A stretch of 64,000 nt of DNA from positions 1-64,000 of IMG/VR virus record IMGVR_UViG_3300036398_003294; one strand, given 5' to 3'. This stretch comes from a virus. The position numbers were made by a program, and so were the translations under genes. This document shows, piece after piece, positions 26,761-50,686 of this stretch. Every line of letters begins with the position of its first letter. Position 1 is the stretch's first letter. The notes under the pieces were generated by a model. The model saw only the letters and a program-made list of their open reading frames with translations. It was not told the DNA's origin and searched no databases.

Positions 26761-29700
26761 ATGGCTATTCAAGGTGGCTATGCACCGCCCGGTGTCTATA
26801 CTCAAACAGTTTTTGATTCACCTTTACCATCTAGCAATTTCACAGGACAAATTCCTTTATTGCTAGGTGCTGGTAAAGAAACCATTCAATCTGTTGGTGT
26901 TCAAATGATTCGTGGATCTTCTTCATCTGTAGATCAACGAATAGTGAATGAAAACATGAGTGGTCGTGCAGTATTAGGATTTAATCCTGATGGCACACCC
27001 ATTCTTGGTGATTTCAATGGAACTGCAACTAAAGTGCAAGTTCAAAAATTTCCTATGGTAGATGGCACAGGTGGTGGTGTTGTTGCTACTGATAGTTCTA
27101 GTGTTACAGCTTATGTCAATGGTCAAGTCACTGTTGTTTTAAGTGTAGATGGTGCTAAAGGCATTGTAGATACTGTTTTGGTTTCTTATTTTTTTAAGAG
27201 AACAGATACCTTAGTTGAAGATGAAAATATTTCATCTCAAATCACTACTACACAAGCTGAAATCATTGGCTCAAATGGTAGCTTTGATTTCGATGCTTTA
27301 AGTAATGTTTTTGTTTTCTTAGTAGATGGTGTTCAATATTCTATTTCTTTGCCAACAGTTTCTACAGGCACAAGAGAAGATGATCTTAATAGAGTAGTTG
27401 CTATTATTAATTCAGGTTCTTATGGATCTTTAGAGGCATCTTCATACACAGATAATTTCAATCAAGAGAACTTACAATTAAATGCTAATGGTTCTATTGT
27501 TATTGGCAATGGTTCAGCTAATGCTAAACTTGGTCTTGTGGTTAATCAATCTACATCAAGAAACAAAACTTTCTTTACAAGTCATTATCCTATCGTTGAT
27601 GGTACTAATGGTGGTATCACTACTACTGATATTACTGATGTTGTAGTTAAACTTAATGGTGCTGTTATTAGTCCAGCTAGTGTAGATGGTTCTAATGGTA
27701 GTATTACTCTTAAAGATGCTCCTGCAACAGATGCTACTTTAACAGTAACCTATTACTTTAATAACTTTAGAGATCAATTTGACTACATCCCAAGCACAGG
27801 TGTTGTTAGTGTTGAATCTATTTCTCTTGTTTCTGATGGATCAGGTGGTGCATCTTCTAATTTTATTGAAGGTGTTTCATGGGTTCTTAAAGATGATAAG
27901 ATTGTTTGGGGTACTTCTGTTCTTGTTGGTGCAGGTGAAACTTCTTTAGGTGCTACTGCATTTAATGACAGCCAAATCACTGCATCTTTAAAAGATGATA
28001 AAGTTTATCTTGTTGAATGTGAAAGAGTGATTGATACAAGTGTAGTACCACCTAGAGCATTGCCAAGTACCTTTAAATTACCTTACCAACCTGTTGATGG
28101 TACAGGCTCAGGTACACCAACATCAAGAGCAGATTTAGTTGAAGTCAAGGTAGGCTATAATTTTACTGATGCGATTGAAAAAGCTAATTCAGTAGTCGTT
28201 CGTGTTAATCCTTCTGATTCTACAATCGTTTTGGCTGAAGAAGTAGAAGAAGGCAAACAAGTATATGCTACTTTCTATTATAACACTTTGACTGATTCTA
28301 CCATTGGTGGAAATAATCAATATCAATTTGTTTGTTTATCTGATGGTGCTAGTGGTTCAGGTAAATATCAAGTCTTAAAGCAAGGTAGTGCTTTGCATGA
28401 TGTTACTTTAGGTACAAAAGGTTCATCTTTAAATGGTGTAGATTTATCTTTCCCAAGTGGCAGTGAATTATTGCCTGATGCTCGTATCACTACAGGCACA
28501 CCTGTAAATGAAACAGTAACAGTAACATTTACATCAAGCAAGCCAGCAAGTGCTTTATTTATTAGTGGTGGTGCTAGTCCATATTTCACCATTAAAGATA
28601 CAAGTGATCAAATCAATTTATCTATTGATGAGGCAGTTGTTACAGGTGGTGTAAGTTTATCTGCTCCAACAGGTACAGGTAGATTTGGTGCGATTGCACA
28701 TATCGTAGGTGATGTATTGCCATATACAGTAGAAAGTGGCTTGCAAGATTTAGGTACAATTAGTGCAGGTAATGACAGTCTTCAATTAAAGCTAGATAAT
28801 GATGATGTAGTCGTCAATATTGGTACTGTTGCAAATTGTACTGCTGATGATATTGCAAATGCTATTAATATTGCTTGTAATAGTGTTTCTGCTAAATACC
28901 AAGCGATGACTACCATGAATGGTGGTGTTGAGATTATTGCAAACAGTCATGATACTTTATCTTTCCAATTTGTAGGTAATACACATGGTACAGTAGGTGA
29001 AATTGCAATCACTTTGACAGATGCTGTTTATTCCACTGCAAATGCTTTGGCAACAGAACTTGAAACACAAATTAATAGTGCATTAGTAGATGCTTTACTT
29101 CAATATGAAGTAAATGGTGTTACTCAAGGTATTATTATTTCTGTTAGTGCAAATTCACAAGGTCGATTAATTTTTAGCTTAGATCAAATTGGTAAGAAAT
29201 TTGAAATCTTAGATGCAGTAGATATCATTCCGGGCGAAGTTTATGTTATTAAAACAGTAGGTGGTACAGACTTTACAGCAGTTGGTAGTGCAGATAATAA
29301 TATAGGTACAACCTTTACTGCTGATGAGTTCGGTATCATTTTAGGTGGTGTAGGTACAGTCGTTCATGCGATTACAGAACTTGTAGAAGAAACAGCAGGT
29401 TCTTTTGTTGTTGGTGAAACATATACAATTACAGTAGCAGGTACAACAGACTTTACTTTGATTGGCGCCGCTAATAACTTAGTAGGTACAACCTTTATTG
29501 CTTTAGGTGCTGGTGCTTTAGGTACAACAGGTAAAGCTGAACGAAATGTAGACCTTGAAGATACTTATGGTTACCTTGAATTTATTAGTCAAGCTGATCC
29601 TGAAGATGATTTTGCTATTATTGCAGGTATTGACACAGATGATGCAGATGGTACACAAACTAAGTTTGGTCTTTTACCTGTTGCTCAAGTTGCATCTACT

Positions 29701-31959
29701 TCTTTAGGTGGTGGTGCATTAAAAGAAAGATTGATCTTAAGAAATCGTTTCTTTCAAGGCAACACTTATTTCTTACCAAGTGGTGAATTAGGTATCCGTG
29801 TAGTAGCAGGTAGCTTATTAACAAAAGCAGGTTTGAAATCAAGTTTTGCATCTGCAATTAAAGGTGCAGTCGTTCAACAACCTACATTAAAGTTATTAAC
29901 AGGTTGGACAGAACAAAAGACTGCTGATAGTCAACCTGCTGTGAAGTTCTATAATGGTACTAACAATTCATATCCTGCCAATAATACTTTATTGTTAGAT
30001 GTGAATGGTACTATTGTTAGTGTAGAATTTACATCTAGTGCCACAGGTACTTTAACTTGTGTAGGTGAAAGCATTGTAGATGGTTTGATTTTGATTTCAA
30101 ATTCTATTGTAGATCAAATCAATAATGCTTTTGCTGATGCAGGTGTAGATGCGATTGTAGAGGCAAGTCAAGAAGGTGCAGGCATTCGTATTGTAGGTGG
30201 TGGATCTTTTGTAAATAGTTATCTTAAAGTTTTAAATGGTAGTGCAAATGAAACTTTAGGTTTAACTGCAAACCAAACTTCTACTTCTACAAATGTAAGT
30301 GCAAGTCAAATTGTAAGTGCATTAATGAGCCATCAATCAAATACTTTAACAGATTTGCTTTTTGGTGAAACTCTTGCAAATGACTACTTTAAATCTAAGG
30401 CTGTTGCTTTTGTACATATTTCAGCTACCAATAAGCAATATTTGGCAATTGAAAGTTTAAGCACAGGTGTTGGATCTATTGTAGATTTCACAGGTGGTAA
30501 TGCAATCACAACCAAAGGCACAGGCTTAAAGATTACTACTACAGATGGTGCAGTTGGTGAAGATGCTAAACAAGGTTTCTATGTAAAATCAAGTATCTCT
30601 AATGGATCAGGTTCAGCAAACACTTCTATTTTTAATAGTGGTGTTGGTCAAGATGGTTTCATTGGTCAAACTTATGTAGATGCAGTAACAGGATTGACAT
30701 TTACCATTTTGCCAAGAGATGGTGGTGTAGATTATCCTCAAGATGCAAATGCTTTCTTTAAATGGAATGTAAGTCAAAACATCACTTGTAATGCAAATAT
30801 TCCTAAGAACTTTGTTAATGGTGTATCTGTAATCGTATCAAATACAACAGGTGTAGCAGTAGGTGATACAGCAAACCTTGAAACATTTGATAAAGGTGGC
30901 AGTGAACCTGATATTGGTCAAGTATATTATATCTCTTATACACAAGAGAAAGTAGACTACACAACAAAGGTCTTTAATAGCATTGCAGATGTAGTCGCTG
31001 AATATGGTGATATATCAACACAAAATCCATTATCTTTAGGTGCATACTTAACGATTTTGAATGGTGCAGGTACAATTGCTTGTAAGCAAATTAAGAGATT
31101 AGCAAATACAGCTGAAATCACAGAAACACAAATGATCGAGGCAATCGATTCAATTGAAGGTGGCATCACAGCAACCTTAACACCATCTGTAATTTTGCCA
31201 TTAATCCCTGCAAGTGAAAGTTTGTTAAGTCATATTAGCAAGCATTGTGATTTACAAAGTTCATTAAGATTTAGATCTGAAAGAACAGCGATTTTAGGTT
31301 TTGCTAGTGGTACTATTCCTAAAGAGGCAGGTCGTTTGGCAAACCTTACAGGATCAAGTCGTGTTCGTGTAGTATATCCTGATATTGCAAGTTTAACTTT
31401 GACAAACACTTTGGGAAATCCTGTTACTTATATTGTAGATGGTCGTTATCTTGCTTGTGCAGTAGCTGGTACAACAACATCTCTTAATATTGATGTTGCT
31501 ACCCCATGGGAATCAAGACAAGTAAATGGTTTCAATGGTGTATTGAGAAACCTTACACCTGTTGAGGCAAATGCTACAGCAGTTAAAGGTGTATCTATCC
31601 TTGAAAATGCAGGCACTACCATTAAGATTAGACATGGTTTAACAACCAATATGTCTTCTGTATTGACTAAGACACCTACAATCATTCAAATTGCAGATCA
31701 AGTTCAAAGAACGATGAGAGGTGTTTTGGATGGATTTATTGGTGTTAAGAATTTACCTGTGATTCAATCACAAGTATTGTTAGCAGTCAATAATGAATTT
31801 CAAAGACTTGTATCTAGTGGCATCATTGAATCATATACAGGTTTAGCAGTCGTTCAAGATCCTGAAGATGCAACAGGGTTATTGATTAATGCTTTCTACA
31901 AGCCTGTATTCCCATTATTGTATATTCAATTTACATTCAATGTTCGCTCTAATGGATAG
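26761..31959 (+). CDS. Giant tail sheath protein
   Basis: 1732 aa, SD AGGAGC. The N-terminus GGYAPPGVYTQTVF is the standard sheath opening, and the C-terminal ~250 residues have the sheath core pattern: LPVIQSQVLLAVNNEFQRLV, SSGIIESYTGLAVVQDPED and FYKPVFPLLYIQFTF. The sheath contracts to drive the tube through the envelope. T4 gp18 is ~660 aa, so over 1000 residues are insertions. These include three VDGT(G/N)(G/S)G beta repeats (starting near residues 99, 277 and 444), two (G)E(V/T)Y(V/T)I..(G)GTTDFT-type repeats (near 827 and 885), and two modules ending (N)GSAN..LGL (about 165-264 and 1069-1171). The last is followed by the core fold. Insertions probably decorate the tail surface. Confidence 0.9.
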   Translation: MAIQGGYAPPGVYTQTVFDSPLPSSNFTGQIPLLLGAGKETIQSVGVQMIRGSSSSVDQRIVNENMSGRAVLGFNPDGTPILGDFNGTATKVQVQKFPMVDGTGGGVVATDSSSVTAYVNGQVTVVLSVDGAKGIVDTVLVSYFFKRTDTLVEDENISSQITTTQAEIIGSNGSFDFDALSNVFVFLVDGVQYSISLPTVSTGTREDDLNRVVAIINSGSYGSLEASSYTDNFNQENLQLNANGSIVIGNGSANAKLGLVVNQSTSRNKTFFTSHYPIVDGTNGGITTTDITDVVVKLNGAVISPASVDGSNGSITLKDAPATDATLTVTYYFNNFRDQFDYIPSTGVVSVESISLVSDGSGGASSNFIEGVSWVLKDDKIVWGTSVLVGAGETSLGATAFNDSQITASLKDDKVYLVECERVIDTSVVPPRALPSTFKLPYQPVDGTGSGTPTSRADLVEVKVGYNFTDAIEKANSVVVRVNPSDSTIVLAEEVEEGKQVYATFYYNTLTDSTIGGNNQYQFVCLSDGASGSGKYQVLKQGSALHDVTLGTKGSSLNGVDLSFPSGSELLPDARITTGTPVNETVTVTFTSSKPASALFISGGASPYFTIKDTSDQINLSIDEAVVTGGVSLSAPTGTGRFGAIAHIVGDVLPYTVESGLQDLGTISAGNDSLQLKLDNDDVVVNIGTVANCTADDIANAINIACNSVSAKYQAMTTMNGGVEIIANSHDTLSFQFVGNTHGTVGEIAITLTDAVYSTANALATELETQINSALVDALLQYEVNGVTQGIIISVSANSQGRLIFSLDQIGKKFEILDAVDIIPGEVYVIKTVGGTDFTAVGSADNNIGTTFTADEFGIILGGVGTVVHAITELVEETAGSFVVGETYTITVAGTTDFTLIGAANNLVGTTFIALGAGALGTTGKAERNVDLEDTYGYLEFISQADPEDDFAIIAGIDTDDADGTQTKFGLLPVAQVASTSLGGGALKERLILRNRFFQGNTYFLPSGELGIRVVAGSLLTKAGLKSSFASAIKGAVVQQPTLKLLTGWTEQKTADSQPAVKFYNGTNNSYPANNTLLLDVNGTIVSVEFTSSATGTLTCVGESIVDGLILISNSIVDQINNAFADAGVDAIVEASQEGAGIRIVGGGSFVNSYLKVLNGSANETLGLTANQTSTSTNVSASQIVSALMSHQSNTLTDLLFGETLANDYFKSKAVAFVHISATNKQYLAIESLSTGVGSIVDFTGGNAITTKGTGLKITTTDGAVGEDAKQGFYVKSSISNGSGSANTSIFNSGVGQDGFIGQTYVDAVTGLTFTILPRDGGVDYPQDANAFFKWNVSQNITCNANIPKNFVNGVSVIVSNTTGVAVGDTANLETFDKGGSEPDIGQVYYISYTQEKVDYTTKVFNSIADVVAEYGDISTQNPLSLGAYLTILNGAGTIACKQIKRLANTAEITETQMIEAIDSIEGGITATLTPSVILPLIPASESLLSHISKHCDLQSSLRFRSERTAILGFASGTIPKEAGRLANLTGSSRVRVVYPDIASLTLTNTLGNPVTYIVDGRYLACAVAGTTTSLNIDVATPWESRQVNGFNGVLRNLTPVEANATAVKGVSILENAGTTIKIRHGLTTNMSSVLTKTPTIIQIADQVQRTMRGVLDGFIGVKNLPVIQSQVLLAVNNEFQRLVSSGIIESYTGLAVVQDPEDATGLLINAFYKPVFPLLYIQFTFNVRSNG

Positions 31960-33198: not shown

Positions 33199-33232
33199 AT
33201 GATTGAACTCTTTTTATTAAAAGGACAATCAT
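33199..33232 (+). promoter_or_regulatory. Hairpin covering SD and start codon of the DNA polymerase gene
   Basis: Outer stem ATGATTG (33199-33205) with CAATCAT (33226-33232), inner stem CTTTT (33210-33214) with AAAAG (33219-33223), with a small internal loop. Both the SD AAAAGGA and the first two bases of the ATG at 33231 are paired. TATAATATG (33193-33201) overlaps the left arm and could be a promoter -10 region. Confidence 0.5.
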
Positions 33233-35831
33233 GTTTTCAGATTTCTTTGAATCACTACAAAGACCAGATGTTAAACCTAAAAAATGGATGAGAGAAGTAG
33301 ATCTCATTTTAGGTACAAAAGATAATATTAAACAAGCTATTGATGAGTGTTTAGCATCTAGTCATTATGGCATAGACTTAGAAACAACAGGTTTAGATAA
33401 TCGTGTTTTTCATGGTAGAACAAGAGCATCTATTGTAGGTATTTCTATTGCACCTAATGAAAAGAAAGCATATTATTTTCCTATTAGACATAGTGCAGGT
33501 ACAGAACATAATGTTTCATGGTCAATTATAGATAGAGAATTTAGTCGCTTGCTCAGTGTAAATGCTACAGCTATTCCTGTGTTTCATAATGGTGCTTTCG
33601 ATCAAGAGTTTTTAGAATATAATGGAGAAACTCTTTTAGGTAAAGAACGATTTGAAAATCCAAAGTTATGGGAAGATAACTATATTATGGCTTGTCTTAT
33701 GAATAGTCGTGATAAAGGTGGTCGTGGTCTTAAAGATATGTCTAAAGATAAATTAGGTTGGGAAATGATCGAACTTGATGAACTCATTCCTAAATCTAAA
33801 ATTAAAGATTATTCTACTCTTGATCCATCTTGGGAAGCCTGTGTTTGGTATGCAGGTGCAGATGCTTTATGTACTCTTAAACTCTATAATATCTTAAAAG
33901 ACTTGTTTCCTAAAGAAATGATTAGTCTTTATATGATCGAAAAGAAATGCAATACTTCAGTTAGGTGGATGCACAGAAACAGAGTTTATATTGATCAAAA
34001 GAAAACACAAGAGTTTATTAAGATTGGTCAAAAGGAATGGATGGATAGTCTTATTGAAGTGTATGAAGGTGCAAAGGAATTACTTGGTAGAGATGTCATG
34101 CCTGCATACATTAAAATTATGAAAGGTGATCTAAAAGGTGTCAATAAGTTTAACACGGATAATACAGACAGCTTTAAAGATTGCATAGACGAGGCAAGAA
34201 AAGAAGCTGATCGTATGTATCCACATTTAGATATGGCAGGTGAAGATTTTGTAGCTAGAAAAATGGTAGCATCTTTGACTAATCCAAAACAAAAAGAAGA
34301 AGTAGTCTTTGAATATAAATATGATATTTTATCATCTCAACAATTAGGCATGATGTTTAGAGAATTAGAAGTACCTAATTTACAAACTACAGCAAGTGGA
34401 CAAGTCGCAACAGGTGCAGATGTTTTAGATGAAGTGATTGAAGAGGCATCGGATACTTTTCCATTTGTAAGAAAGATTAAAAGATTAAGAGAACTAGCTA
34501 AAGCACTTGGTCAATATCTTATACCTATGAAAGAGGATGTTGCAGATGATGGTACATTAAAACCAAAATTTAATCAGTTTGGAGCAGATACAGGTCGTTT
34601 TAGTTGTGGTACAACAAGTAAGCCATGGGAGACAAAAGATGGTGGTTGTAGAGTACCTTTTCAAGGCATACCATCAGGATATGATCCAAAAAGACCAATG
34701 ATTACTTCAAGGTTAAGAGAATGTATAGCAGTAAGAAATCCTGATCATTATTTAGTGGCAATTGACTATGCAGGTGTTGAATTAAGAATTGTAACAAATA
34801 TTAGTCAAGAGCCTTTATGGATTGAAGAATTTTTTAGATGTTCATCATGCAATCGTAAATACACTAAAGAAAGAGGTGAAGATGGATTTCCTATCGTACC
34901 ACCAGCTATTTGTATTTGTGGATCAGATAAGATAGGTGATTTGCATACATTGACAGCAGTTGCTTTTTATGGCGAAGAGGCAAAGAAAAGACCTGATTGG
35001 AAAGCATTAAGAGGCAATGCAAAAGGTGTAAACTTTGCATTATGTTATGGTGGTACAGGTAAAGCAGTGGTTAGAACGATTAACTGTACACAAGAAGAAG
35101 GTGATGAGAAATACCAAACCTTTACAAAGACATATAAAGGTTTAACAAAGTGGTGGAAAAAGGAAGTGGATTTTGCCAAAGAGAATGGATATGTATTAAC
35201 AGCATTTGGTCGAAGAATGTTGATGCCTGATATTAAATCTAAAGAGTTTTCTTTGAGATCAAAGGATGAACGAAAGGCAGTAAATTCACCTGTGCAAGGT
35301 ACAAGTGCAGATATTACTAAGATTGCAATGAGTTTAATTTATGAGAATGTTAAAAAGAGAAATTGGTTTGACAAGCTAATGATGATTTTAACAGTGCATG
35401 ATGAAATTGTATTTGAAATCCATAAAGATATCATAGGCGAGGCAATACCATTGTTATGTGATATTATGGTAAGGAATAAAGCATTGCAAAATAAGAATTG
35501 GATTGTGCCTTTAACAGTGGATGTAGAAATAGGTAAAGATTGGTCTGTGCCTTATGATTTGAAAGAGTTAAGAGAAGGCAAAGGAGAAGATGAATTTTTA
35601 GTGAATGCTTTTAAAGTGGATCATAGTGGACAGCCAAAGCCAAAGGTATTAAATGAAACTACCTTAAGCACAGAGCAAGAAGAAAAAACAAAGCATTATG
35701 AGATTTACGAATTGAATGAGTTATCGTATAGTGAGGCAGATCGATTATCTGAATGGATTAAGTTAAATACAGGTAAAGACATTAAGATTATGTATCAAGG
35801 TAGAGATGTATCTATCTTATTAAAGGATTAA
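33231..35831 (+). CDS. Family A DNA polymerase with 3'-5' exonuclease and zinc-like insertion
   Basis: 866 aa. Replicative family A (Pol I-type) polymerase. The proofreading domain is complete: Exo I DLETTGL (about residue 48), Exo II FHNGAFDQEF (about 118), Exo III YAGADALCTLKLY (about 207). Polymerase motifs: A DYAGVELRI (about 510), B RGNAKGVNFALCYGG (about 593), C VHDEI (about 722). There is no N-terminal 5'-3' exonuclease domain, as in other phage polymerases. Between motifs A and B there is an insertion (about 537-570) with CSSC and CICG, which looks like a zinc ribbon in the fingers-side region before GDLHTLTA. The C-terminal ~90 residues beyond the fold are acidic and unassigned. Followed 7 bp later by the eleven-gene tandem array. 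Confidence 0.95.
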   Translation: MFSDFFESLQRPDVKPKKWMREVDLILGTKDNIKQAIDECLASSHYGIDLETTGLDNRVFHGRTRASIVGISIAPNEKKAYYFPIRHSAGTEHNVSWSIIDREFSRLLSVNATAIPVFHNGAFDQEFLEYNGETLLGKERFENPKLWEDNYIMACLMNSRDKGGRGLKDMSKDKLGWEMIELDELIPKSKIKDYSTLDPSWEACVWYAGADALCTLKLYNILKDLFPKEMISLYMIEKKCNTSVRWMHRNRVYIDQKKTQEFIKIGQKEWMDSLIEVYEGAKELLGRDVMPAYIKIMKGDLKGVNKFNTDNTDSFKDCIDEARKEADRMYPHLDMAGEDFVARKMVASLTNPKQKEEVVFEYKYDILSSQQLGMMFRELEVPNLQTTASGQVATGADVLDEVIEEASDTFPFVRKIKRLRELAKALGQYLIPMKEDVADDGTLKPKFNQFGADTGRFSCGTTSKPWETKDGGCRVPFQGIPSGYDPKRPMITSRLRECIAVRNPDHYLVAIDYAGVELRIVTNISQEPLWIEEFFRCSSCNRKYTKERGEDGFPIVPPAICICGSDKIGDLHTLTAVAFYGEEAKKRPDWKALRGNAKGVNFALCYGGTGKAVVRTINCTQEEGDEKYQTFTKTYKGLTKWWKKEVDFAKENGYVLTAFGRRMLMPDIKSKEFSLRSKDERKAVNSPVQGTSADITKIAMSLIYENVKKRNWFDKLMMILTVHDEIVFEIHKDIIGEAIPLLCDIMVRNKALQNKNWIVPLTVDVEIGKDWSVPYDLKELREGKGEDEFLVNAFKVDHSGQPKPKVLNETTLSTEQEEKTKHYEIYELNELSYSEADRLSEWIKLNTGKDIKIMYQGRDVSILLKD

Positions 35832-35838
35832 ATTAAAA

Positions 35839-36063
35839 ATGATCTGTTGGTTTGAAAATCATAGCAATACCATACAATACAATCCCACTCATGTATTTTT
35901 GTCGTCTTCAATATCTAATAACAAGCATGGTTTTCCTATATTAAATAAAGAGAGTTTTAGAAATTCAGTATCTCTTTTTTTAAGTAGGTCAAATACAAAT
36001 AGCAATTGGATAATCCAGCCTAATGTGTACTTAAAACCAAGTAAAGGAAATAAGTTAAAATGA
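35839..36063 (+). CDS. MICWF array protein 1
   Basis: 74 aa. Carries the family blocks MICWFEN, VFLSSSISN, a single SFRNS, an SRS segment, NW and VYLKPSKG. The segment SLFLSRSNTNSNWI is identical to that in array copy 10, about 2 kb away, also at nearly all bases. No signal peptide, membrane helix or known fold. Starts 7 bp after the polymerase stop and ends in an ATGA overlap with copy 2. Confidence 0.8.
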   Translation: MICWFENHSNTIQYNPTHVFLSSSISNNKHGFPILNKESFRNSVSLFLSRSNTNSNWIIQPNVYLKPSKGNKLK

Positions 36064-36287
36064 TTTTTAGTTTTGAGATGTCGGCAAATGAAGTGAAAAG
36101 AAATACAAGATTTGTGTTAATCACATCAAGTTCTTTTGGTAATACAGGAGTTCCTATTCAAGAAAACAATTTTAGAGATGCCTTAGCTTTCTATATTGTT
36201 AGGACAGGTGGTCTTATGGATTCAAGAAAATATGAGAATTGGCATCGTGCTAATGATATGTATTTTAAACCTAATGGGGATAAATAA
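36060..36287 (+). CDS. MICWF array protein 2 (divergent)
   Basis: 75 aa. The most divergent copy: it begins MIFSFEMSANEV, lacking the Cys3-Trp4 pair, but keeps NNFRDAL, the aromatic W near residue 63, and ends MYFKPNGDK like copy 5. Overlaps copy 1 by four bases. Could be a specialised member. Confidence 0.75.
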   Translation: MIFSFEMSANEVKRNTRFVLITSSSFGNTGVPIQENNFRDALAFYIVRTGGLMDSRKYENWHRANDMYFKPNGDK

Positions 36288-36290
36288 AAA

Positions 36291-36518
36291 ATGATCTGTT
36301 GGTTTGAAAATTCAAATAATGACATCACTTCTATTGATTCTCATGTTTTCTTTTTATCTTGTGTATCAAGTAGGCATTCAGGATATTATATAGATGAGAA
36401 AAACTTTAGGCAGAATATATCTATATATATAGCAAGAGGAAGGGATGTTATAAATAGAACATGGGTGAATAATTGTGATCGGTATTATGCACCACATCTT
36501 AATAAGGAGGGTAAGTAA
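36291..36518 (+). CDS. MICWF array protein 3
   Basis: 75 aa. MICWFEN, VFFLSCVSSRHSG, NFRQNISIYIARGRDVI, TW and YYAPH. The QNISIYIARGRDVI block is shared exactly with copy 11, while SSRHSG is shared with copy 5. The tail HLNKEGK is unique. Confidence 0.8.
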   Translation: MICWFENSNNDITSIDSHVFFLSCVSSRHSGYYIDEKNFRQNISIYIARGRDVINRTWVNNCDRYYAPHLNKEGK

Positions 36519-36520
36519 AA

Positions 36521-36739
36521 ATGATCTGTTGGTTTCACTCACATGGCAATTTAGTTCGATATAATAAAGAGATCGTGTTTCTGATAAACAATTATCAAGG
36601 AGCAGGTTTCCATATACATAAGGGAGATTCATTTAGAAGATCAATCGCTTTATTTAACACAAGAGCCTTAGTACAGCCTAACGGAAAAAATTGGTATATG
36701 GATTGTGATGTTCATTTAGCACCAAATGGAGATAAGTAA
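36521..36739 (+). CDS. MICWF array protein 4 (INNY subtype)
   Basis: 72 aa. MICWFHSHGN, then INNYQGAGFHI in place of the usual SS(I/V)SSRHSG, then SFRRSIALF and HLAPNGDK. It forms a subtype with copy 8, which also has INNY(E)GAG and FRR. Preceded by GGAGGG in the previous gene's tail, a fair SD. Confidence 0.8.
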   Translation: MICWFHSHGNLVRYNKEIVFLINNYQGAGFHIHKGDSFRRSIALFNTRALVQPNGKNWYMDCDVHLAPNGDK

Positions 36740-36741
36740 AA

Positions 36742-36966
36742 ATGATATGTTGGTTTGAAAATGATAGTAATAATGTAATGTCAAATACAAATTTTGTATT
36801 TCTAATGAGTTCGATCTCAAGTCGTCATTCAGGTATGTATTTACAAGAAGAAAATTTTAGATTAGGAATAGCTTTATACATAGCTAGAGATAGAAAACTC
36901 ATTAAACCAAATTGGAAGTATGATATTGATCCGTATTTTAAGCCAAATGGAGATAAGTTAAAATGA
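36742..36966 (+). CDS. MICWF array protein 5
   Basis: 74 aa. MICWFENDSNNV, VFLMSSISSRHSG, ENFRLGIALYIARDR, NW and YFKPNGDK. The N-terminal two thirds match copy 6 most closely, the C-terminus copy 2. SD GGAG in the tail of copy 4. Ends with an ATGA overlap into copy 6. Confidence 0.82.
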   Translation: MICWFENDSNNVMSNTNFVFLMSSISSRHSGMYLQEENFRLGIALYIARDRKLIKPNWKYDIDPYFKPNGDKLK

Positions 36967-37181
36967 TTTGTTGGTTTGAGAATGATAGTAATGATGTTCG
37001 CTCAATAGATAACTATGTTTTTCTATTAGGTTCTATATCTAGTCGTAAAACAGGATTCCATTTACACAACCAAAATTTTCGTTTAGGTATGGCATTATAC
37101 CTAGCAAGAGGAAGGGATGTTATAAATAAGACATGGATAAATCAATCTGATGCCTATTTAGCACCAAAGGATAAAAAATGA
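36963..37181 (+). CDS. MICWF array protein 6
   Basis: 72 aa. MICWFENDSNDV, VFLLGSISSRKTG, QNFRLGMALYLARGRDVI, TWINQSDAYLAPK. Close to the family consensus. The GRDVIN.TW.N block links it to copies 3 and 11, and NQSDAYLAPK to copies 10 and 11. Confidence 0.83.
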   Translation: MICWFENDSNDVRSIDNYVFLLGSISSRKTGFHLHNQNFRLGMALYLARGRDVINKTWINQSDAYLAPKDKK

Positions 37182-37402
37182 TTTGTTGGTTTGTCAATAA
37201 AGGTAATGCACCTGAAGCTAATGAACATAATGTTTTTTTATTGTCTAGTGTATCGCCCAAAAGAGTAGGTGAGATGGTAGATGAAAGAAACTTTAGAAGG
37301 TTTGTAGCTTTATCTACAGCAAAGGGTAGAGAAGTCGTAGGTCGAGGTGAGTGGATTTTAAACCATAATTTATATTTAGCACCTAAGAAAGGATTAAGAT
37401 AA
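37178..37402 (+). CDS. MICWF array protein 7
   Basis: 74 aa. MICWFVNKGN, VFLLSSVSPKRVG, NFRRFVALSTAKGREVVGRG, W and LYLAPKKG. The REVVGR...W block is shared with copy 8 and no other, suggesting a local exchange or duplication. Confidence 0.8.
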   Translation: MICWFVNKGNAPEANEHNVFLLSSVSPKRVGEMVDERNFRRFVALSTAKGREVVGRGEWILNHNLYLAPKKGLR

Positions 37403-37403
37403 A

Positions 37404-37622
37404 ATGCTATATTGGTTTCATCATGGTGGAAATAGATTTCAATATAATGAAAAGCTATGTCACTATATCAACAATTATGAGGGAGCTGGTCTTGTGATCA
37501 CAAAAGAAAACTTCAGAAGATGTATGGCATTGTCGATTGCAAGAGCAAGAGAAATCGTAGGCAGGAATAATTGGATAGTGGACTCTGATTTATATATTTC
37601 ACCAAAGGATAAGATAAAATGA
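37404..37622 (+). CDS. MICWF array protein 8 (INNY subtype)
   Basis: 72 aa. Begins MLYWFHHGGN, so Cys3 is missing although Trp4 is kept. INNYEGAG pairs it with copy 4; the C-terminal half AREIVGRNNWI..SDLYISPK pairs it with copy 7. It looks like a recombinant of two lineages. ATGA overlap with copy 9. Confidence 0.8.
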   Translation: MLYWFHHGGNRFQYNEKLCHYINNYEGAGLVITKENFRRCMALSIARAREIVGRNNWIVDSDLYISPKDKIK

Positions 37623-37849
37623 TCTGTTGGTTTGAGAATGTAGGCAGTTGCACTACAACAAATAGAGTAGTTTGTTATATGGTATCTTATCCGTCACCTA
37701 GTGGAAATGGTATTTGTATCTATGCAGGCTCAAACTTTAGAGAATTTATTTCTTTTTCTGTTTGTAAAAGTGATTATCTCATTCCACAATCAAATTGGCT
37801 TACACATAGTAATAGATACCTAGCACCTAAGAAAGATAAGTTAAAATGA
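37619..37849 (+). CDS. MICWF array protein 9
   Basis: 76 aa, the longest member. MICWFENVGS, then a divergent Cys-containing middle (VVCYMVSYPSPSGNGICIYAG), NFREFISFSVCKS, NW and RYLAPKKDK. Five cysteines in total, more than any other copy. ATGA overlap with copy 10. Confidence 0.78.
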   Translation: MICWFENVGSCTTTNRVVCYMVSYPSPSGNGICIYAGSNFREFISFSVCKSDYLIPQSNWLTHSNRYLAPKKDKLK

Positions 37850-38058
37850 TCTGTTGGCTTAATAATAATAGTAATGATGTTTTTCAGAATACAATGACTG
37901 TGTTTTTAATATCCTCATTTGCAAGTAAGGCACATGGACTTTATGTACATAAAGAAAATTTTAGAAATTCGATATCTCTTTTTTTAAGTAGATCTAATAC
38001 AAATAGCAATTGGATAAATCAATCAGATGCCTATCTAGCACCTAAGAAAGATAAATAA
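37846..38058 (+). CDS. MICWF array protein 10
   Basis: 70 aa. MICWLNNNSNDV, VFLISSFASKAHG, ENFRNSISLFLSRSNTNSNW (as copy 1), then INQSDAYLAPKKDK (as copies 6 and 11). This is the clearest mosaic in the array: the middle matches copy 1 and the end matches copies 6 and 11. Confidence 0.82.
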   Translation: MICWLNNNSNDVFQNTMTVFLISSFASKAHGLYVHKENFRNSISLFLSRSNTNSNWINQSDAYLAPKKDK

Positions 38059-38060
38059 AA

Positions 38061-38276
38061 ATGATCTGTTGGTTTGAAAACCTAAACAACACTGTGCAAA
38101 CGATTCAATTTCAAGTTTATTTTATGTCTTCTAAATCATCACAAGCACATGGATATTATTTGGATGAAAAAAGTTTTAGACAAAATATATCTATCTATAT
38201 AGCAAGAGGAAGAGATGTTATATTTACTACATGGATAAACCAATCAGATGTGTATTTAGCACCTAAGAAAGGATAA
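38061..38276 (+). CDS. MICWF array protein 11
   Basis: 71 aa. MICWFENLNN, VYFMSSKSSQAHG, SFRQNISIYIARGRDVI (as copy 3), then TWINQSDVYLAPKKG (as copies 6 and 10). Last member; the next gene (38284) is unrelated, so the array ends cleanly here. Confidence 0.82.
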   Translation: MICWFENLNNTVQTIQFQVYFMSSKSSQAHGYYLDEKSFRQNISIYIARGRDVIFTTWINQSDVYLAPKKG

Positions 38277-38283
38277 AGTTAAA

Positions 38284-38787
38284 ATGAAAGATTTATTATT
38301 TGAATGCAATGATCAAGGCATGACAGAAAAAGAATTTACTGAAATGTTTTGTAAGGTATGCAAAAATAGAAAATGTGCAAGAGCAAGTTGGGCATTTTCT
38401 TCATGGGATGAAAGAATTAATACTCAATATGATAGATTTTTTCATACACCTACTATAAAGCAATCTGAAGCCTCTCAATATAAAGGCATCAGTGATTTTG
38501 AAGAATACCATATCAATCCTGTAGTCGATATATGGACACCTGCAAGTTTAGATTTTAGTAAATCACAACCTAAACATTATAAGATAGAACAAGATATTTC
38601 TCAATCATCCATTGAGAAACCTATCTTATCACAGCATGATGAAATAAACACACCTGTGCAAAACCTATATTTTATAGGTGACAGTAAACAACAAGTACAA
38701 CCACAACAACAAACCATTCAACAAGACGAATGGTCTTTGCCACCTAAAACTTTAAAAGTTGGTGGCAAGTTTCAAATGGGAAAATAA
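38284..38787 (+). CDS. Conserved phage protein with N-terminal cysteine cluster
   Basis: 167 aa. The N-terminal 60 residues contain FCKVCKNRKCARASWAFSSW then DERINTQYDRFFHTP. This C..C...C arrangement, followed by an aromatic W.eRi.tQ segment, is one I recall from several large phages as a conserved protein of unknown function, perhaps metal-binding. The middle is Q/S-rich and low complexity (QQVQPQQQTIQQ). The C-terminus is LPPKTLKVGGKFQMGK. Lies directly after the array and is probably co-transcribed with it. Confidence 0.6.
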   Translation: MKDLLFECNDQGMTEKEFTEMFCKVCKNRKCARASWAFSSWDERINTQYDRFFHTPTIKQSEASQYKGISDFEEYHINPVVDIWTPASLDFSKSQPKHYKIEQDISQSSIEKPILSQHDEINTPVQNLYFIGDSKQQVQPQQQTIQQDEWSLPPKTLKVGGKFQMGK

Positions 38788-39667: not shown

Positions 39668-39892
39668 ATGTTAATAGTATGGATAGCTTTATGCACTCTC
39701 CCTATGTATGTAGGGATTACTCTTAAAGTAAGCATCATACTATTAGACAGCGAGTTGGCAATACAGGATAAGGTAGTTTGGTATGTAAAAATATTAGGCT
39801 ACCTTTTTTTATTTTGGTATGTAGAGATACTAGATTATATGATTGATAAAGATTTATGGACGATCAAATGGTATTTAAAATTTAAGACTTAG
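39668..39892 (+). CDS. Small membrane protein, 74 aa
   Basis: 74 aa with two hydrophobic segments: LIVWIALCTLPMYVGITLKV (about 2-21) with continuation, and VVWYVKILGYLFLFWYVEIL (about 36-55). Likely inner-membrane; could act in lysis control or superinfection exclusion, but nothing decides this. It converges with and overlaps the minus-strand 334-aa gene by 11 bp. Its ribosome site is in the hairpin just upstream, so expression is probably stage-restricted. Confidence 0.6.
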   Translation: MLIVWIALCTLPMYVGITLKVSIILLDSELAIQDKVVWYVKILGYLFLFWYVEILDYMIDKDLWTIKWYLKFKT

Positions 39893-40886
39893 GACTATAG
39901 AACATATAACTAGCAACATCCATAATATTTTGATGTGCATGAGCAAGTTTACTTTCAACCCAATCTTCTAAAGGTGTATCATGCTTAATAATATCTGCAA
40001 GAGAAGAAAGTTGAGTAAGCATTTGATTGATGTTAGAAACAGACATATAAGAACCATCAGAATCAGCTTGAAGATCCATAATAGCATTAGCTTTTTTACC
40101 TAGCTTTCTAGCTTCTTTTCTTTTAGTCTTAGCAGTCGTTTTAAGATCTTTAACAGCTTTCTTAACAAGTTCTTCTGCACTCTTAATAATATCAAAAGAC
40201 GAAGCTAGTTTGTCATGCAAATCAGCTGGAATAACATTAGATTTTTTAAGGTATGGTAGATCTTGTTTAGACCATGCAGTTTTATATTCTTTAGCTTTTT
40301 CATCAGCTTTATCTGCTTCAGCTAAAAGTTCATTCATTTCGGATTCAATAGATGCGATTAACATTCTAGCAGTTCTATTAAGAAACTTATTTTGACCAGC
40401 TTGTTTATTAATAAACTTATTAGCTACTCTTGATGCAAGTTTAACATTAAGTTCTTTTTCACAAGACTCTTGAGATTTAGGTGCTTGACCTGTAATTGTA
40501 CCACCATACATACAGGTATTTACTTTCCATTCATCTTCAAAGTCTTGTTCTTTAATCCATTTTTGCCATTCTTTCTTACCTTTGGGTCCTTCATGAAATC
40601 TTGATTCTCTTTGAAGATCTGCTTTCTTAAATTGATCTTTATATTTCTCAGTGTTTTCTTCCCATTCATCTTGAAAATCTTTAGGTTGGTCTTCAAACCA
40701 TTCTTTAAATTCTTTCTTACCTTTGGGGCCTTCATGAAATCTTGATTCTTTATCAAAATCAGCAAACATATCATTTGCCTCAATGCTACCATAATCTCTT
40801 CTCATCATTAGAGGTTGAGATAAGCCTTGATCAGTATCACTACAGCCACAGGCTGTAAAACGATTAAATTTATTTCTTCTTAACAT
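39882..40886 (-). CDS. Virion/assembly-type protein with duplicated RFHEGPKGKKE motif
   Basis: 334 aa, SD AAAGGAT. Two copies of ESRFHEGPKGKKE(F/W) followed by (K/Q)(E/K)W and a D(F/FQ)DEW helix (about residues 47-85 and 93-122). A cysteine near the N-terminus (ACGCSD). The C-terminal 200 residues are helical and charged; the end, LEDWVESKLAHAHQNIMDVA then SYMFY, matches a C-terminal motif I recall in many large-phage proteins. Downstream of the cysteine protease gene with a 4-bp gap, hinting that it may be a protease substrate or partner, which is inference. Confidence 0.6.
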   Translation of the reverse strand: MLRRNKFNRFTACGCSDTDQGLSQPLMMRRDYGSIEANDMFADFDKESRFHEGPKGKKEFKEWFEDQPKDFQDEWEENTEKYKDQFKKADLQRESRFHEGPKGKKEWQKWIKEQDFEDEWKVNTCMYGGTITGQAPKSQESCEKELNVKLASRVANKFINKQAGQNKFLNRTARMLIASIESEMNELLAEADKADEKAKEYKTAWSKQDLPYLKKSNVIPADLHDKLASSFDIIKSAEELVKKAVKDLKTTAKTKRKEARKLGKKANAIMDLQADSDGSYMSVSNINQMLTQLSSLADIIKHDTPLEDWVESKLAHAHQNIMDVASYMFYSPKS

Positions 40887-45646: not shown

Positions 45647-48640
45647 ATGCTTACTGCATACCTAAACCAACTCAAAGATATTAAATCTCGTAACGGTTCT
45701 GAATACTCTTACAGACCTGCACTTAAATCCATTCTTAAAGGTCTTGTCTTTACTGATGAACCAACAGGCAAAGGTAAAAATAAAATCGATATGGAAGTCT
45801 ATACTCAAAATTCTTTGGTAGCTTTCTATATCGAAACTAAAAACCTTAATGAAGACTTATCCCATCCAAAACACCAAGACCAATTCAATAGATATAAGCA
45901 GGCATTTCCTAAATTGCTTATCACTAACTTTATTGACTTTGAATTTTACCAAGATGGCAACTTGCTGGATAAATGCACATTATCTGATGCTCTTAGCTTT
46001 GATAAGTTTAACACCTTGCTAGATAATTTCATGGCAAGCACTATCCAATTTAATAGTCCTTTGGCATTAGCTAAAAAACTTGCAGATAAAACCAAATCCT
46101 TAAAATCTGAAATCCTGTCTACTTTAAATACAGATGATCTTGAAATTGAGCAGAAGATTAAAACTAAAAAGAAGTACAAGCTAGTAGCATATAGGAATGA
46201 ATTTAAGAAAATGCTTATTGAGGATATTGATAACAATCAATTTGCAGACCTGTATGCACAAACTTTAACTTATGGTTTATTTGCATCAAGATACTATGCT
46301 TATCAAAAAGATCCTAATGCTATCTTTACTAGATCAGATGCCTCGAATCTTATCCCAAATACCAATCCTTTATTAAAGCAATTCTTTGATACCATCAGTA
46401 ATGATAAAAATGAATTATCCCAAAGCATTAACAATTTAATTGATGCCATCACTGTCATTTTAGCTAATACAGATATGTCTAAAATCATCTCTTCTTTAAA
46501 GCTGGCTAACAATGATATTGTCATTCACTTTTATGAAAACTTCCTTGAGCAATATGATCCAGAATTAAGAAAGCAAATGGGTGTTTGGTATACACCTGTA
46601 GAAGTAGTGAACTATATTGTCAAAGGTGTAGATGAATTATTAAAAACTAAGTTTGCTATTAAAGATGGTATTTCATCTAGTGAAAAGCAATCATATACCT
46701 ATACTAAAAAAGTAAAGGTAGGCAAAGATTCATATAAAACAGAAACCTGCATTAAAGATAATGTGCATAAAGTACAGATTTTAGATCCTGCTACAGGCAC
46801 AGGTAATTTTTTAAATTCAGTAGTGGAATACATTAAGACAAATTACAAGTACTCATCCTTATGGAATGACTATGTAAATAAAGACTTGATACCTAGATTA
46901 AATGGATTTGAATTGATGATGCCTTCTTATGTGATGGCTCACATGAAGATGTATGAATTATTAAAAGACAGTTTAACAGAAGATACAGACAGGTTTAACA
47001 TTTACTTAACAAACACCTTAAATGGTGCAGTGGATGTAGAAGAGCATTTATTAAGTGTAAGTGATTTGGTATATCAATTAAATGAAGAGGCAATAGGTGC
47101 AAATAGAGTAAGACAAGAACAGCCTGTGATGGTAGTCTTAGGTAATCCTCCTTATAATGGTAATAGTAAGAATAATGGTACTTTTATCACTGAACTTATG
47201 AGTGAATATGCACAGAAAGGTAAAAATATTGGCAAAGGTCTTAATGATGATTACATTAAGTTTATTAGATATGGACAATCTCTTATTGATCAAAACCAAT
47301 CAGGTATTCTAGCTTATATCTCAAATAATAGTTTTATCAAAAGCCTTGCCTGCTCCAAAATGAGAGAGTCTTTATTAGGAAGTTTTGATGAGATTTATAT
47401 TCTCAATTTACATGGTGATAAAGATGAGAATATTTTTAGTATCACCACACCTGTCTGCATATCATTCTTTGTTAAGACTAATAAGAAAGCAGTAGGTAAA
47501 TTAGGTAAAGTCTTTTATCATGAGATTAAAGGTTTAAAATCAGATAAAATCTCTTATTGTACTAATCAAGTCTTGAATGAAGATTTTAAAGAGATTGAGA
47601 TTATAGGTGATGAGAAGTATTTTTATTCTCAAGATGTTACAATTTTCAATCAGTATAATCAAAACTCTTTTGCTTTGTGTGATTTATTCTTAGAAAAACA
47701 GCAAGGGGTTTTAACAGCTTGTGATGATTTAGTCGTGGATACTAATAAAGAAAGATTAGAACTAAAAATAAAATTATACCAAGATGTAGGTCAACTACCC
47801 ATTTCTATTGAAAAAAGCAAAGAAACAAAAAGAAGTGCTAAATATCATTTAAAAAACTTAAAAAATAAAAAAGGGAAGATTAAATTGTTTCCTTATAGAC
47901 CTTTTGATATTAGAGTGCTTTATGATTCAGATATGGTTCTTTTTAAGAAAAAAGAACTAACACAGCATGAACAAGTACATGAAAATATCTATTTTAATTT
48001 CACTCCTAATTGTTGGGATAAAAACAATTACTCTCATATCTTAATATCCAAAAATACACCTTGTAATCATCTTTTTGCACATGGGACTACATACACAGCA
48101 CCTTTATATCTCCACTCACCTAATGTTATTGATCCATCTGCTCCTCAATTCACATCTAACCTAAACACTACCATCACAGCTAAATTCACTTCCCTTGAAT
48201 CCACCATCACAGATTTAGATATTGTAGACTATATTTATGGTGTGCTTAATGATAAAGCATACACTACTAAATACAATCAGTTTCTTAAATCTAATTATCC
48301 AAAAGTACCTTATCCAAAAGATATTGATACTTTCAATACTTATAAAGATGCAGGCAGTAAACTTAGACAAGTTCATCTCGATGATAACACTCAAGATGCA
48401 CAATCCACTTATAATGCCACTACCAATAATAAGATTGAAAAAGTTTCTTTTGATGCAGATAAAGTATATTTCAATAAGTCCAGCTACTTCGATAACATTT
48501 CTCAAGAGATGTGGGATTTTAAAATAGGAGCAAGCCAACCTTTAAAGAATTGGTTAGAAAGTAGAAAAGAAGATACCTTTGACCAAACCATGATTGAGCA
48601 ATATTTAAATGTTGTATATAAAGTAAGAAACTCTCTATAA
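45647..48640 (+). CDS. Restriction-modification fusion: PD-(D/E)XK nuclease plus adenine-N6 methyltransferase (type IIG/ISP-like)
   Basis: 997 aa. The N-terminal ~130 residues look like a PD-(D/E)XK nuclease: Asp48 in KIDMEVY, Glu63 and Lys65 in FYIETKNLNEDL, then QFNRYKQAFPKLLITNFIDF, as in type IIG and type ISP enzymes. The methyltransferase core follows: WYTPVEVVNYIVKGV (motif X side), ILDPATGTGNFL (motif I, about residue 380), FELMMPSYVMAHMKM, and NPPYNGNS (motif IV, about 500; NPPY marks adenine-N6 enzymes). The C-terminal ~400 residues hold the specificity region, ending MWDFKIGASQPLKNWLESRK, the usual type ISP end. No helicase domain is present. Such an enzyme cuts unmethylated and methylates own sites. 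In a phage it could attack host or competing phage DNA. Confidence 0.8.
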   Translation: MLTAYLNQLKDIKSRNGSEYSYRPALKSILKGLVFTDEPTGKGKNKIDMEVYTQNSLVAFYIETKNLNEDLSHPKHQDQFNRYKQAFPKLLITNFIDFEFYQDGNLLDKCTLSDALSFDKFNTLLDNFMASTIQFNSPLALAKKLADKTKSLKSEILSTLNTDDLEIEQKIKTKKKYKLVAYRNEFKKMLIEDIDNNQFADLYAQTLTYGLFASRYYAYQKDPNAIFTRSDASNLIPNTNPLLKQFFDTISNDKNELSQSINNLIDAITVILANTDMSKIISSLKLANNDIVIHFYENFLEQYDPELRKQMGVWYTPVEVVNYIVKGVDELLKTKFAIKDGISSSEKQSYTYTKKVKVGKDSYKTETCIKDNVHKVQILDPATGTGNFLNSVVEYIKTNYKYSSLWNDYVNKDLIPRLNGFELMMPSYVMAHMKMYELLKDSLTEDTDRFNIYLTNTLNGAVDVEEHLLSVSDLVYQLNEEAIGANRVRQEQPVMVVLGNPPYNGNSKNNGTFITELMSEYAQKGKNIGKGLNDDYIKFIRYGQSLIDQNQSGILAYISNNSFIKSLACSKMRESLLGSFDEIYILNLHGDKDENIFSITTPVCISFFVKTNKKAVGKLGKVFYHEIKGLKSDKISYCTNQVLNEDFKEIEIIGDEKYFYSQDVTIFNQYNQNSFALCDLFLEKQQGVLTACDDLVVDTNKERLELKIKLYQDVGQLPISIEKSKETKRSAKYHLKNLKNKKGKIKLFPYRPFDIRVLYDSDMVLFKKKELTQHEQVHENIYFNFTPNCWDKNNYSHILISKNTPCNHLFAHGTTYTAPLYLHSPNVIDPSAPQFTSNLNTTITAKFTSLESTITDLDIVDYIYGVLNDKAYTTKYNQFLKSNYPKVPYPKDIDTFNTYKDAGSKLRQVHLDDNTQDAQSTYNATTNNKIEKVSFDADKVYFNKSSYFDNISQEMWDFKIGASQPLKNWLESRKEDTFDQTMIEQYLNVVYKVRNSL

Positions 48641-48661
48641 TTGATTGTAGGATAATACACA

Positions 48662-50686
48662 ATGACTTATGAAAATACACTTCCTATAGAAGTTAGAAAA
48701 AAATTAGGTGTTTGGTACACACCAACCGAAATAGTAGAATATATGGTTAAAGGGATTGAGAACTTATTAAATTCTAAATTCAATCTTCCTTTAGATAGTC
48801 AAGATATTCAAATCCTTGATCCTGCTACAGGCACAGGAACTTTTATTGACTGTCTAGTCAATAAAGTTTCTTTAGCAGAAATACATGGGATTGAAATTGA
48901 TCCTGATGCTTATGAGATAGCATCAGAGAAGTTTAAAGATTTAGATAATGTGAAGGTATATAATTTAAATACTTTGGAAGGTGCATTAAAACTAAAATCA
49001 TCTAAAGTGAGAGTAGTCTTAGGCAATCCACCTTATAATGGCAACAGTAAGAATAATGGTGATTTTATCACTGAACTTATGAACTCTTATAAGGTTAGTA
49101 ATAAAAATATAGGCAAGGGACTTAATGATGATTACATTAAGTTTATTAGATATGGACAATCTCTTATTGATCAAAACCAATCAGGTATTCTAGCTTATAT
49201 CTCAAATAATAGCTTTATCCAAAGCCTTGCTTGTTCTAAAATGAGAGATTCGTTATTAAATAGCTTTGATGAGATTTATATCTTAAATTTACATGGGGAT
49301 AAAGATGAGAATGTTTTTAGTATCACTACTCCTGTTTGTATCTCATTCTTTGTTAAGACTAATAAGAAAGTAGCTGGTAAAGTCTTTTATCATGAGATTA
49401 AAGGTTTAAAATCAGATAAAATCTCTTATTGCCTTAACAGCACTCTAAATTTAGATTTTAAAGAGATTGAGATTATAGGTAGTGAGAAATATTTTATTCC
49501 ACAAGATGTGGATGCTATAAAGGATTATAACAAAAACTCTTTTAGTTTAGATGATTTGTTCTTAACTAAGGGACAAGCTATATTAACAGCTTGTGATGAT
49601 CTTGTAATCGACACTAATAAAACCAATCTCTTAAATAAGATCAATGACTTTCAAACAAAAGGATGGCTACCTGAGAAAATAGAAAATGGTGCAGACTCGG
49701 AACATACAGGTAAGATTAAATTAAGATCATTAAAAAATAAAGATGGTGAAGTTAAACCATTTGCATATAGACCATTTGACAATCGCTTTATTTATGATTC
49801 GGATATGGTGCATAGAAGAAAAACTGAACTAACACAACATGATCAAGTACAAGGCAACATTTATTTGAATAATGCTAGAACAGGTAAGATTAAATTAAGA
49901 TCATTAAAAAATAAAGATGGTGAAGTTAAACCATTTCCATATAGACCTTTTGATACTAGATTTATTTATGATTCGGATATGGTTTTGTATAGAAAAGAAA
50001 CACTGACAGAACATGATCAAGTCATAGGAAATATCTATATTAACTTTAAACATAATTGTTGGGATAAAAACGACTTTACACATATCTGTATCTCAAAAAA
50101 CACACCATCAAATGAATTTTTTGCACATGGTGCAACATACACAGCACCTCTATACCTACACTCTCCATATCATTTAAATCCTACTGCTCCTCAATTCACA
50201 TCTAACTTAAACCATATCATTAAATCTAAATTCACTTCCCTTGATCCTTCTATCACAGACTTGGATATTATTGACTATATTTATGGTGTCCTCAACGATA
50301 AGAACTACACCACTAAATATAACCAATTCCTTAAATCTAATTATCCAAGAGTACCTTATCCTAAAGACACTATTGAATTTAATGTCTATAAGGATAAAGG
50401 CACTACTCTTAGACTTGTTCATCTTGATGATAAAACAGAAGATGAACAGTCTACCTTTAATGCCACCACTAATAATAAGATTGAAAAAGTTTCTTTTGAT
50501 GCAGATAAAGTGTATTTCAACAAGACTAGCTACTTCGATCAAATCACACAAGAGATGTGGGATTTTAAAATAGGTGCAAGTCAACCTTTAAAGAATTGGT
50601 TGGAAAGCAGGAAAGAAGATACTTTTGACCAAGCTATGATTGAGCAATATTTAAATGTCATTTATAAAGTAAGACATTCTATCTAA
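48662..50686 (+). CDS. Adenine-N6 methyltransferase paralog without nuclease domain
   Basis: 674 aa, SD AGGAT. Starts directly at the methyltransferase part: VWYTPTEIVEYMVKGIENL, ILDPATGTGTFI (motif I, about residue 53), IHGIEIDPDAYEIA (motif II), NPPYNGNS (motif IV, about 122). No nuclease residues precede it. Its middle and C-terminus are close to the 997-aa protein, including a 92-base identical stretch. The specificity region contains an internal tandem duplication (49706-49879 and 49880-50053). It may add a protecting methylation at the same or a second site. Lies 21 bp downstream of the fusion gene. Confidence 0.8.
   Translation: MTYENTLPIEVRKKLGVWYTPTEIVEYMVKGIENLLNSKFNLPLDSQDIQILDPATGTGTFIDCLVNKVSLAEIHGIEIDPDAYEIASEKFKDLDNVKVYNLNTLEGALKLKSSKVRVVLGNPPYNGNSKNNGDFITELMNSYKVSNKNIGKGLNDDYIKFIRYGQSLIDQNQSGILAYISNNSFIQSLACSKMRDSLLNSFDEIYILNLHGDKDENVFSITTPVCISFFVKTNKKVAGKVFYHEIKGLKSDKISYCLNSTLNLDFKEIEIIGSEKYFIPQDVDAIKDYNKNSFSLDDLFLTKGQAILTACDDLVIDTNKTNLLNKINDFQTKGWLPEKIENGADSEHTGKIKLRSLKNKDGEVKPFAYRPFDNRFIYDSDMVHRRKTELTQHDQVQGNIYLNNARTGKIKLRSLKNKDGEVKPFPYRPFDTRFIYDSDMVLYRKETLTEHDQVIGNIYINFKHNCWDKNDFTHICISKNTPSNEFFAHGATYTAPLYLHSPYHLNPTAPQFTSNLNHIIKSKFTSLDPSITDLDIIDYIYGVLNDKNYTTKYNQFLKSNYPRVPYPKDTIEFNVYKDKGTTLRLVHLDDKTEDEQSTFNATTNNKIEKVSFDADKVYFNKTSYFDQITQEMWDFKIGASQPLKNWLESRKEDTFDQAMIEQYLNVIYKVRHSI
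49706..50053 (+). repeat. Tandem 174-bp duplication inside the methyltransferase specificity region
   Basis: Two adjacent 174-bp units (49706-49879, 49880-50053) in frame. The first 57 bases are identical (encoding TGKIKLRSLKNKDGEVKPF); the rest is similar (YRPFD.RFIYDSDMV..RK..LT.HDQV.GNIY). The paralog at 45647 has one copy of this segment. Confidence 0.88.

Follow-up and report, generated by a model that had tools for sequence, protein, structure and literature searches.

The systems closest to the gene array described here are the AcrID1 clusters of archaeal viruses and two cases of local gene amplification in phages. Of the 35 AcrID1 homologues, 26 are clustered in four rudivirus genomes (PMC11065993). 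As in our array, the clusters of Icerudivirus SIRV1/2/3 encode small viral proteins, with several diverged paralogues close together in each genome; presence and number vary among related viruses, and most copies are functionally uncharacterised (PMC11065993). However, these are archaeal viruses, no sequence relation to the array family was found, and the AcrID1 genes mostly stand singly behind a shared regulatory sequence at the genome ends (PMC11065993), whereas our array is tightly operonic and lies behind replication genes. The array proteins, moreover, are not known to have anti-CRISPR activity. In phage T4, the 85-aa toxin inhibitor TifA undergoes tandem amplification (PMC9391042); the segmental amplification of dmd-tifA is likewise a recombination-driven tandem multiplication of a small phage gene, but its copies are recent, near-identical and selected for dosage (PMC9391042), whereas ours are old and diverged, again with no sequence relation found. 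According to a third report (PMC13096335), SegB drives amplification of anti-defence loci in phage; as in the present case, accessory loci of a large lytic phage are multiplied locally, but the process needs a homing endonuclease, and none was recognised inside the arrays studied here. The AcrID1 clusters and TifA show that small inhibitor genes are indeed retained or multiplied by viruses in such a manner, although no homology ties them to the array family.

The sequence analysed, hereafter the window, comprises positions 1 to 64,000 of the IMG/VR virus record IMGVR_UViG_3300036398_003294, a 72.4 kb linear fragment. It contains 11 intact small genes of 70-76 codons (as many codons per copy as residues listed below), arranged head to tail in the same direction between a family A DNA polymerase gene and a gene of 167 codons. 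The relatives named in the list are four IMG/VR records (G001-G004), a 316 kb record (G007) and a 6.7 kb record (G005).

33231..35831, + strand: family A DNA polymerase, 866 aa, upstream anchor (Pfam DNA_pol_A, E 6.4e-70; 98% identical in G001-G004, 90% in G007)
35839..36063, + strand: array copy 1, 74 aa (alignment, leave-one-out profile)
36060..36287, + strand: array copy 2, 75 aa; orthologue at array position 4 of G001-G004 (89%)
36291..36518, + strand: array copy 3, 75 aa; orthologue at array position 5 of G001-G004 (85%)
36521..36739, + strand: array copy 4, 72 aa; orthologue at array position 3 of G001-G004 (81%), order changed
36742..36966, + strand: array copy 5, 74 aa; closest relative (70%) elsewhere, between sbcC and sbcD in G005
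36963..37181, + strand: array copy 6, 72 aa; used for an AlphaFold2 model
37178..37402, + strand: array copy 7, 74 aa
37404..37622, + strand: array copy 8, 72 aa; orthologue at array position 7 of G001-G004 (94%)
37619..37849, + strand: array copy 9, 76 aa; orthologue in the pol-locus array of G007 (71%)
37846..38058, + strand: array copy 10, 70 aa; second half in common with copy 1 (DNA 76% identical, vs 55% in the first half)
38061..38276, + strand: array copy 11, 71 aa (leave-one-out profile)
38284..38787, + strand: downstream anchor, a conserved 167-aa gene of unknown function (identity in relatives 81% and 76%)

The array follows the polymerase stop codon after 7 bp and ends 7 bp before the 167-codon gene. 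Start-to-start spacing is 215-231 bp, and the junctions are five ATGA overlaps and five gaps of 1-3 bp. Cys3-Trp4 is present in nine of the eleven copies, the exceptions being copy 2 (MIFSF) and copy 8 (MLYWF), and M1, G31, F40, R41, W57 and P67 (copy 1 numbering) are invariant in the alignment. This layout, including the number of copies keeping Cys3-Trp4, is as an earlier note on this DNA had given it. Profiles built from ten copies find every left-out copy with E values between 9e-15 and 3e-32, whereas among 415 frames of the window the best one outside the array reaches E 0.36 or worse; thus the likeness of the copies is far beyond chance. No family copy was found in the window record outside the array at the pol locus. 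Rfam and tRNA scans of the window gave no matches, and a promoter scan stayed at chance level. An assembly artefact, which the earlier note had considered, is unlikely, since the DNA of the compared window copies diverges by about 30% or more, so that these are not identical repeats, and since four separate IMG/VR assemblies contain the corresponding seven-copy array without a single letter of difference.

The earlier note knew of no described phage family with this pattern, and the profile searches it had proposed bear this out. No significant family match was obtained in Pfam, PHROGs, NCBIfam, PADLOC, the PDB, 50,697 phage records or two GTDB pattern scans. Hits in Pfam, PHROGs, NCBIfam and PADLOC were isolated, nearly all from one member, with best E values of about 0.006-0.01 on which the members disagree; PDB profile searches gave no hits or E values of 1 and above, nothing in the phage records was better than E 4, and the GTDB scans with two subfamily alignments returned zero relatives. 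Scans of viral sequences with single members and with neighbouring genes returned the same few records and no others, and literature searches found no described match. By these searches the array proteins appear to form a family not previously described. Its conserved framework consists of MICWF, G, NFR, W, Y and P, between which the segments vary in sequence and length. AlphaFold2 models of two distant members predict, at low-to-moderate confidence (mean pLDDT 80 and 72; pTM 0.59 and 0.57), a strand-strand-strand-helix (beta-beta-beta-alpha) core; the C-terminal tail (WIN..Y.AP) is conserved, yet poorly predicted. Foldseek found no match to the two models (best E 9.3 and 5.3), a weak test of the fold given their moderate or low confidence. 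Net charge lies between 0 and +7 in all 43 members compared, most with a pI of 8-10. An Ocr-like DNA-mimic inhibitor, which would have to be strongly acidic, was rejected on these charges.

The comparison of copy number among related phages, likewise proposed in the earlier note, revealed that the pol site holds 11 copies in the window, seven in G001-G004 and two in G007, always between the same two genes and in flanking DNA that is 81-90% identical on both sides. In G001-G004 the orthologue of copy 4 precedes that of copy 2, so the order of the array has changed. The distant 485 kb phage LR745208.1 (polymerase 48% identical) has one or two short non-family frames between its polymerase and a homologue of the 167-aa downstream gene (E 4e-17, 44% over 64 aa), and the whole record contains no family member. 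Its polymerase is a 1758-aa frame (L025 7962-13238) with two insertions that look like inteins, and its 951-aa DnaB frame also looks interrupted.

In the relatives the family occupies several sites, usually behind replication or repair genes, namely pol, dnaB, sbcC and a 520-aa NPPY-motif gene; the motifs of this last gene suggest a methyltransferase-like protein, and it gave no family hit. Behind it stand 12 additional copies in G002, split 8+4 by three opposite-strand genes, and seven in G007. Furthermore, G007 has three copies between the genes for DnaB helicase and CHC2 primase, and G005 has a single copy downstream of RecA, flanked by SbcC-like and SbcD-like genes. The dnaB/primase junction is empty in G002 and G003 (DnaB 96% identical), where the primase start comes 7 bp after the last DnaB codon, counting the stop codon; a more distant relative, G007, has no copy at sbcC/sbcD. 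Occupied and empty junctions together indicate that spread of the family involves entire genes, set in between one stop codon and the next start codon. The association with replication genes is strong and incomplete, since the second G002 sub-array of four copies does not lie directly behind one. These statements refer to a small number of independent sites, in metagenomic records that are mostly fragments, with the family seen in about three or four phage lineages, partly from the same samples. A gene for a phage GroES co-chaperonin is located between two parts of the G002 array (L021 7232-7504), and helix-turn-helix repeat proteins of ~370-400 aa are encoded near the arrays of G002 and G007 (L021 6019-7218, 3351-4463; L022 4671-5819). 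One array member (L022 7048-7332, - strand) has an internal duplication of its ENNFR.....Y.AR helix segment, as unequal recombination would give.

The analysis of divergence separates orthologues from paralogues. The orthologues of window copies 2, 3, 4 and 8 in G001-G004 are 81-94% identical, far closer than paralogues within an array, which are mostly 30-60% identical (best pair 62% in the window, 69% in any array) with synonymous sites near saturation. Orthologue dN/dS is 0.06-0.14 (copies 2, 3, 4, 8 and 9), showing purifying selection and thus that the copies encode selected proteins. For the same phage pair, pooled array orthologues have a synonymous divergence of 0.47 vs 0.23 for pol (Fisher p 1e-8), which fits exchange of cassettes with other phages; copy 2 alone does not differ significantly from pol. 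In a family tree of few columns and many open forks, copy 5 (W5) is sister to the sbcC/sbcD copy S1 (99/94), the pol-locus copy A6 to the methyltransferase-locus copy M12 (98/90), and W2/A4 group with N7 in a well-supported clade that joins different loci. These groupings indicate that lineages change locus. The first and second halves of copies often differ in nearest neighbour; three of 153 pairs are clearly past the Bonferroni limit and a fourth (p 2.2e-4) is also below 3.3e-4, a pattern only suggestive of mosaicism, to which regional rate differences could contribute. Copies share synonymous codons somewhat more often than codon usage predicts, above all at the 5' end (0.73 vs 0.57), which is compatible with junction recombination or with a translation-start constraint.

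Our best explanation, which we hold tentatively, is that these may be small early inhibitors or adaptors directed at varied host or rival-phage targets, most likely in anti-defence. The array would be a repertoire of distinct functional proteins of ~75 aa inserted within the replication operon, translated together with the replication genes and, as we assume from operon position, expressed early. Copies would come and go, change order and be duplicated into other operon junctions, a turnover shown by the comparison above whose motor may be recombination between similar cassette ends. Each kept copy would hold its own specificity under purifying selection, as a putative small binding module with a conserved N-terminal strand, the NFR helix and variable loops, and would neutralise a different host- or rival-encoded antiviral or regulatory protein in early infection; we infer such neutralisation from size, position, turnover and precedent. 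The variable copy number at one site, the further arrays, the empty sites, the contrast of orthologue constraint with paralogue divergence, the cross-locus sisters, the raised synonymous divergence and the AcrID1 and TifA precedents all count in favour. Against it stands the lack of any significant homology to known anti-defence proteins in PHROGs, Pfam and the 50,697 phage records. The orthologues, moreover, are constrained instead of diversifying rapidly, as would be equally expected with a fixed replication partner, and the association with replication and repair genes could instead mean a role in replication.

Such a role, in which the proteins are accessory factors binding or modulating the co-encoded polymerase, helicase/primase, SbcCD or methyltransferase, is the next explanation, and we consider it rather improbable. 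Members do stand directly behind pol, dnaB, sbcC and the NPPY-motif gene, the proteins are mostly basic (pI about 9), and the constraint on orthologues would be expected of them; however, relatives retaining pol, dnaB, sbcC and sbcD have no copies at the same sites, so that the proteins at a site are dispensable to those enzymes, near relatives have few copies in common at the same locus, and sister copies behind different enzymes make a fixed partner per locus unlikely.

Inteins and free-standing homing genes occur at replication genes, and the array genes could by comparison be selfish cassettes, small frames spreading among junctions near replication genes, where recombination is frequent, with little benefit to the phage. 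The clean insertion between stop and start codons at multiple sites and the cross-locus sister groupings agree with this, as do the corresponding pol and dnaB genes of LR745208.1, both with intein-like insertions, and the helix-turn-helix array proteins, matching DNA-binding parts of HNH endonuclease families, that are encoded near two arrays. We nevertheless judge it unlikely: no nuclease or recombinase family was hit, a search of 42 members for HNH, GIY-YIG and LAGLIDADG domains giving nothing, and purifying selection on the protein sequence of the kept copies argues for a function at the protein level.

The earlier note left open whether dosage or diversity had been selected. Tandem amplification raising the amount of one protein would suit the head-to-tail layout in one operon and has a precedent in the evolved T4 tifA amplifications (PMC9391042), but selection for dosage would leave near-identical copies instead of paralogues near synonymous saturation, and the orthologous relations are older than the split of the phages; this half of the proposal is very improbable. 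The diversity half is upheld by old, diverged paralogues, constrained orthologues and turnover of array membership and order, which together favour a turning-over repertoire of distinct proteins; the varying host or rival-phage target that the earlier note also put forward is conjectural. Targets of a diversity-generating retroelement or another dedicated mutagenesis system, which a conserved framework with variable segments might recall, are scarcely credible, since the variation lies between old diverged copies, no reverse transcriptase was found in the fragment records G000, G002, G003, G004 and G007, and no solved structure or family linked the proteins to C-type lectin variable proteins.

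The arrays could also represent a new type of phage repertoire, in which small proteins on a common scaffold move as exchangeable one-gene cassettes between operon junctions behind replication genes, every huge phage holding an individual set of inhibitors for the defences that it encounters; this wider proposal is doubtful. Most small phage genes have no known role, and the 43 members compared, together with orthologues, vacant sites and moves between loci, make the function of this family approachable by simple screens. If the anti-defence repertoire is true, the arrays would offer a ready library of inhibitors and a marker of host-defence pressure on huge phages; if instead they are replication-linked cassettes, they would illustrate how phages can rearrange genes within essential operons.

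Several other features of the window were observed. An NAD-dependent DNA ligase gene (12-911, + strand) is apparently cut off where the record begins, as would be expected of a fragment. An unusually long tail-sheath-like protein of 1732 aa (26761-31959, + strand) has only its C-terminal sheath domain recognised, slightly below the Pfam cut-off. A 334-aa protein (39882-40886) contains an internal direct repeat, ESRFHEGPKGKKE..KW (40516-40763, - strand), which is also present in relatives. Finally, a phage-borne Type ISP-like modification system is duplicated: two tandem genes (45647-50686, + strand; 997 and 674 aa) with long similar stretches encode N6 methylase domains together with the C-terminal specificity domains of Type ISP restriction enzymes.
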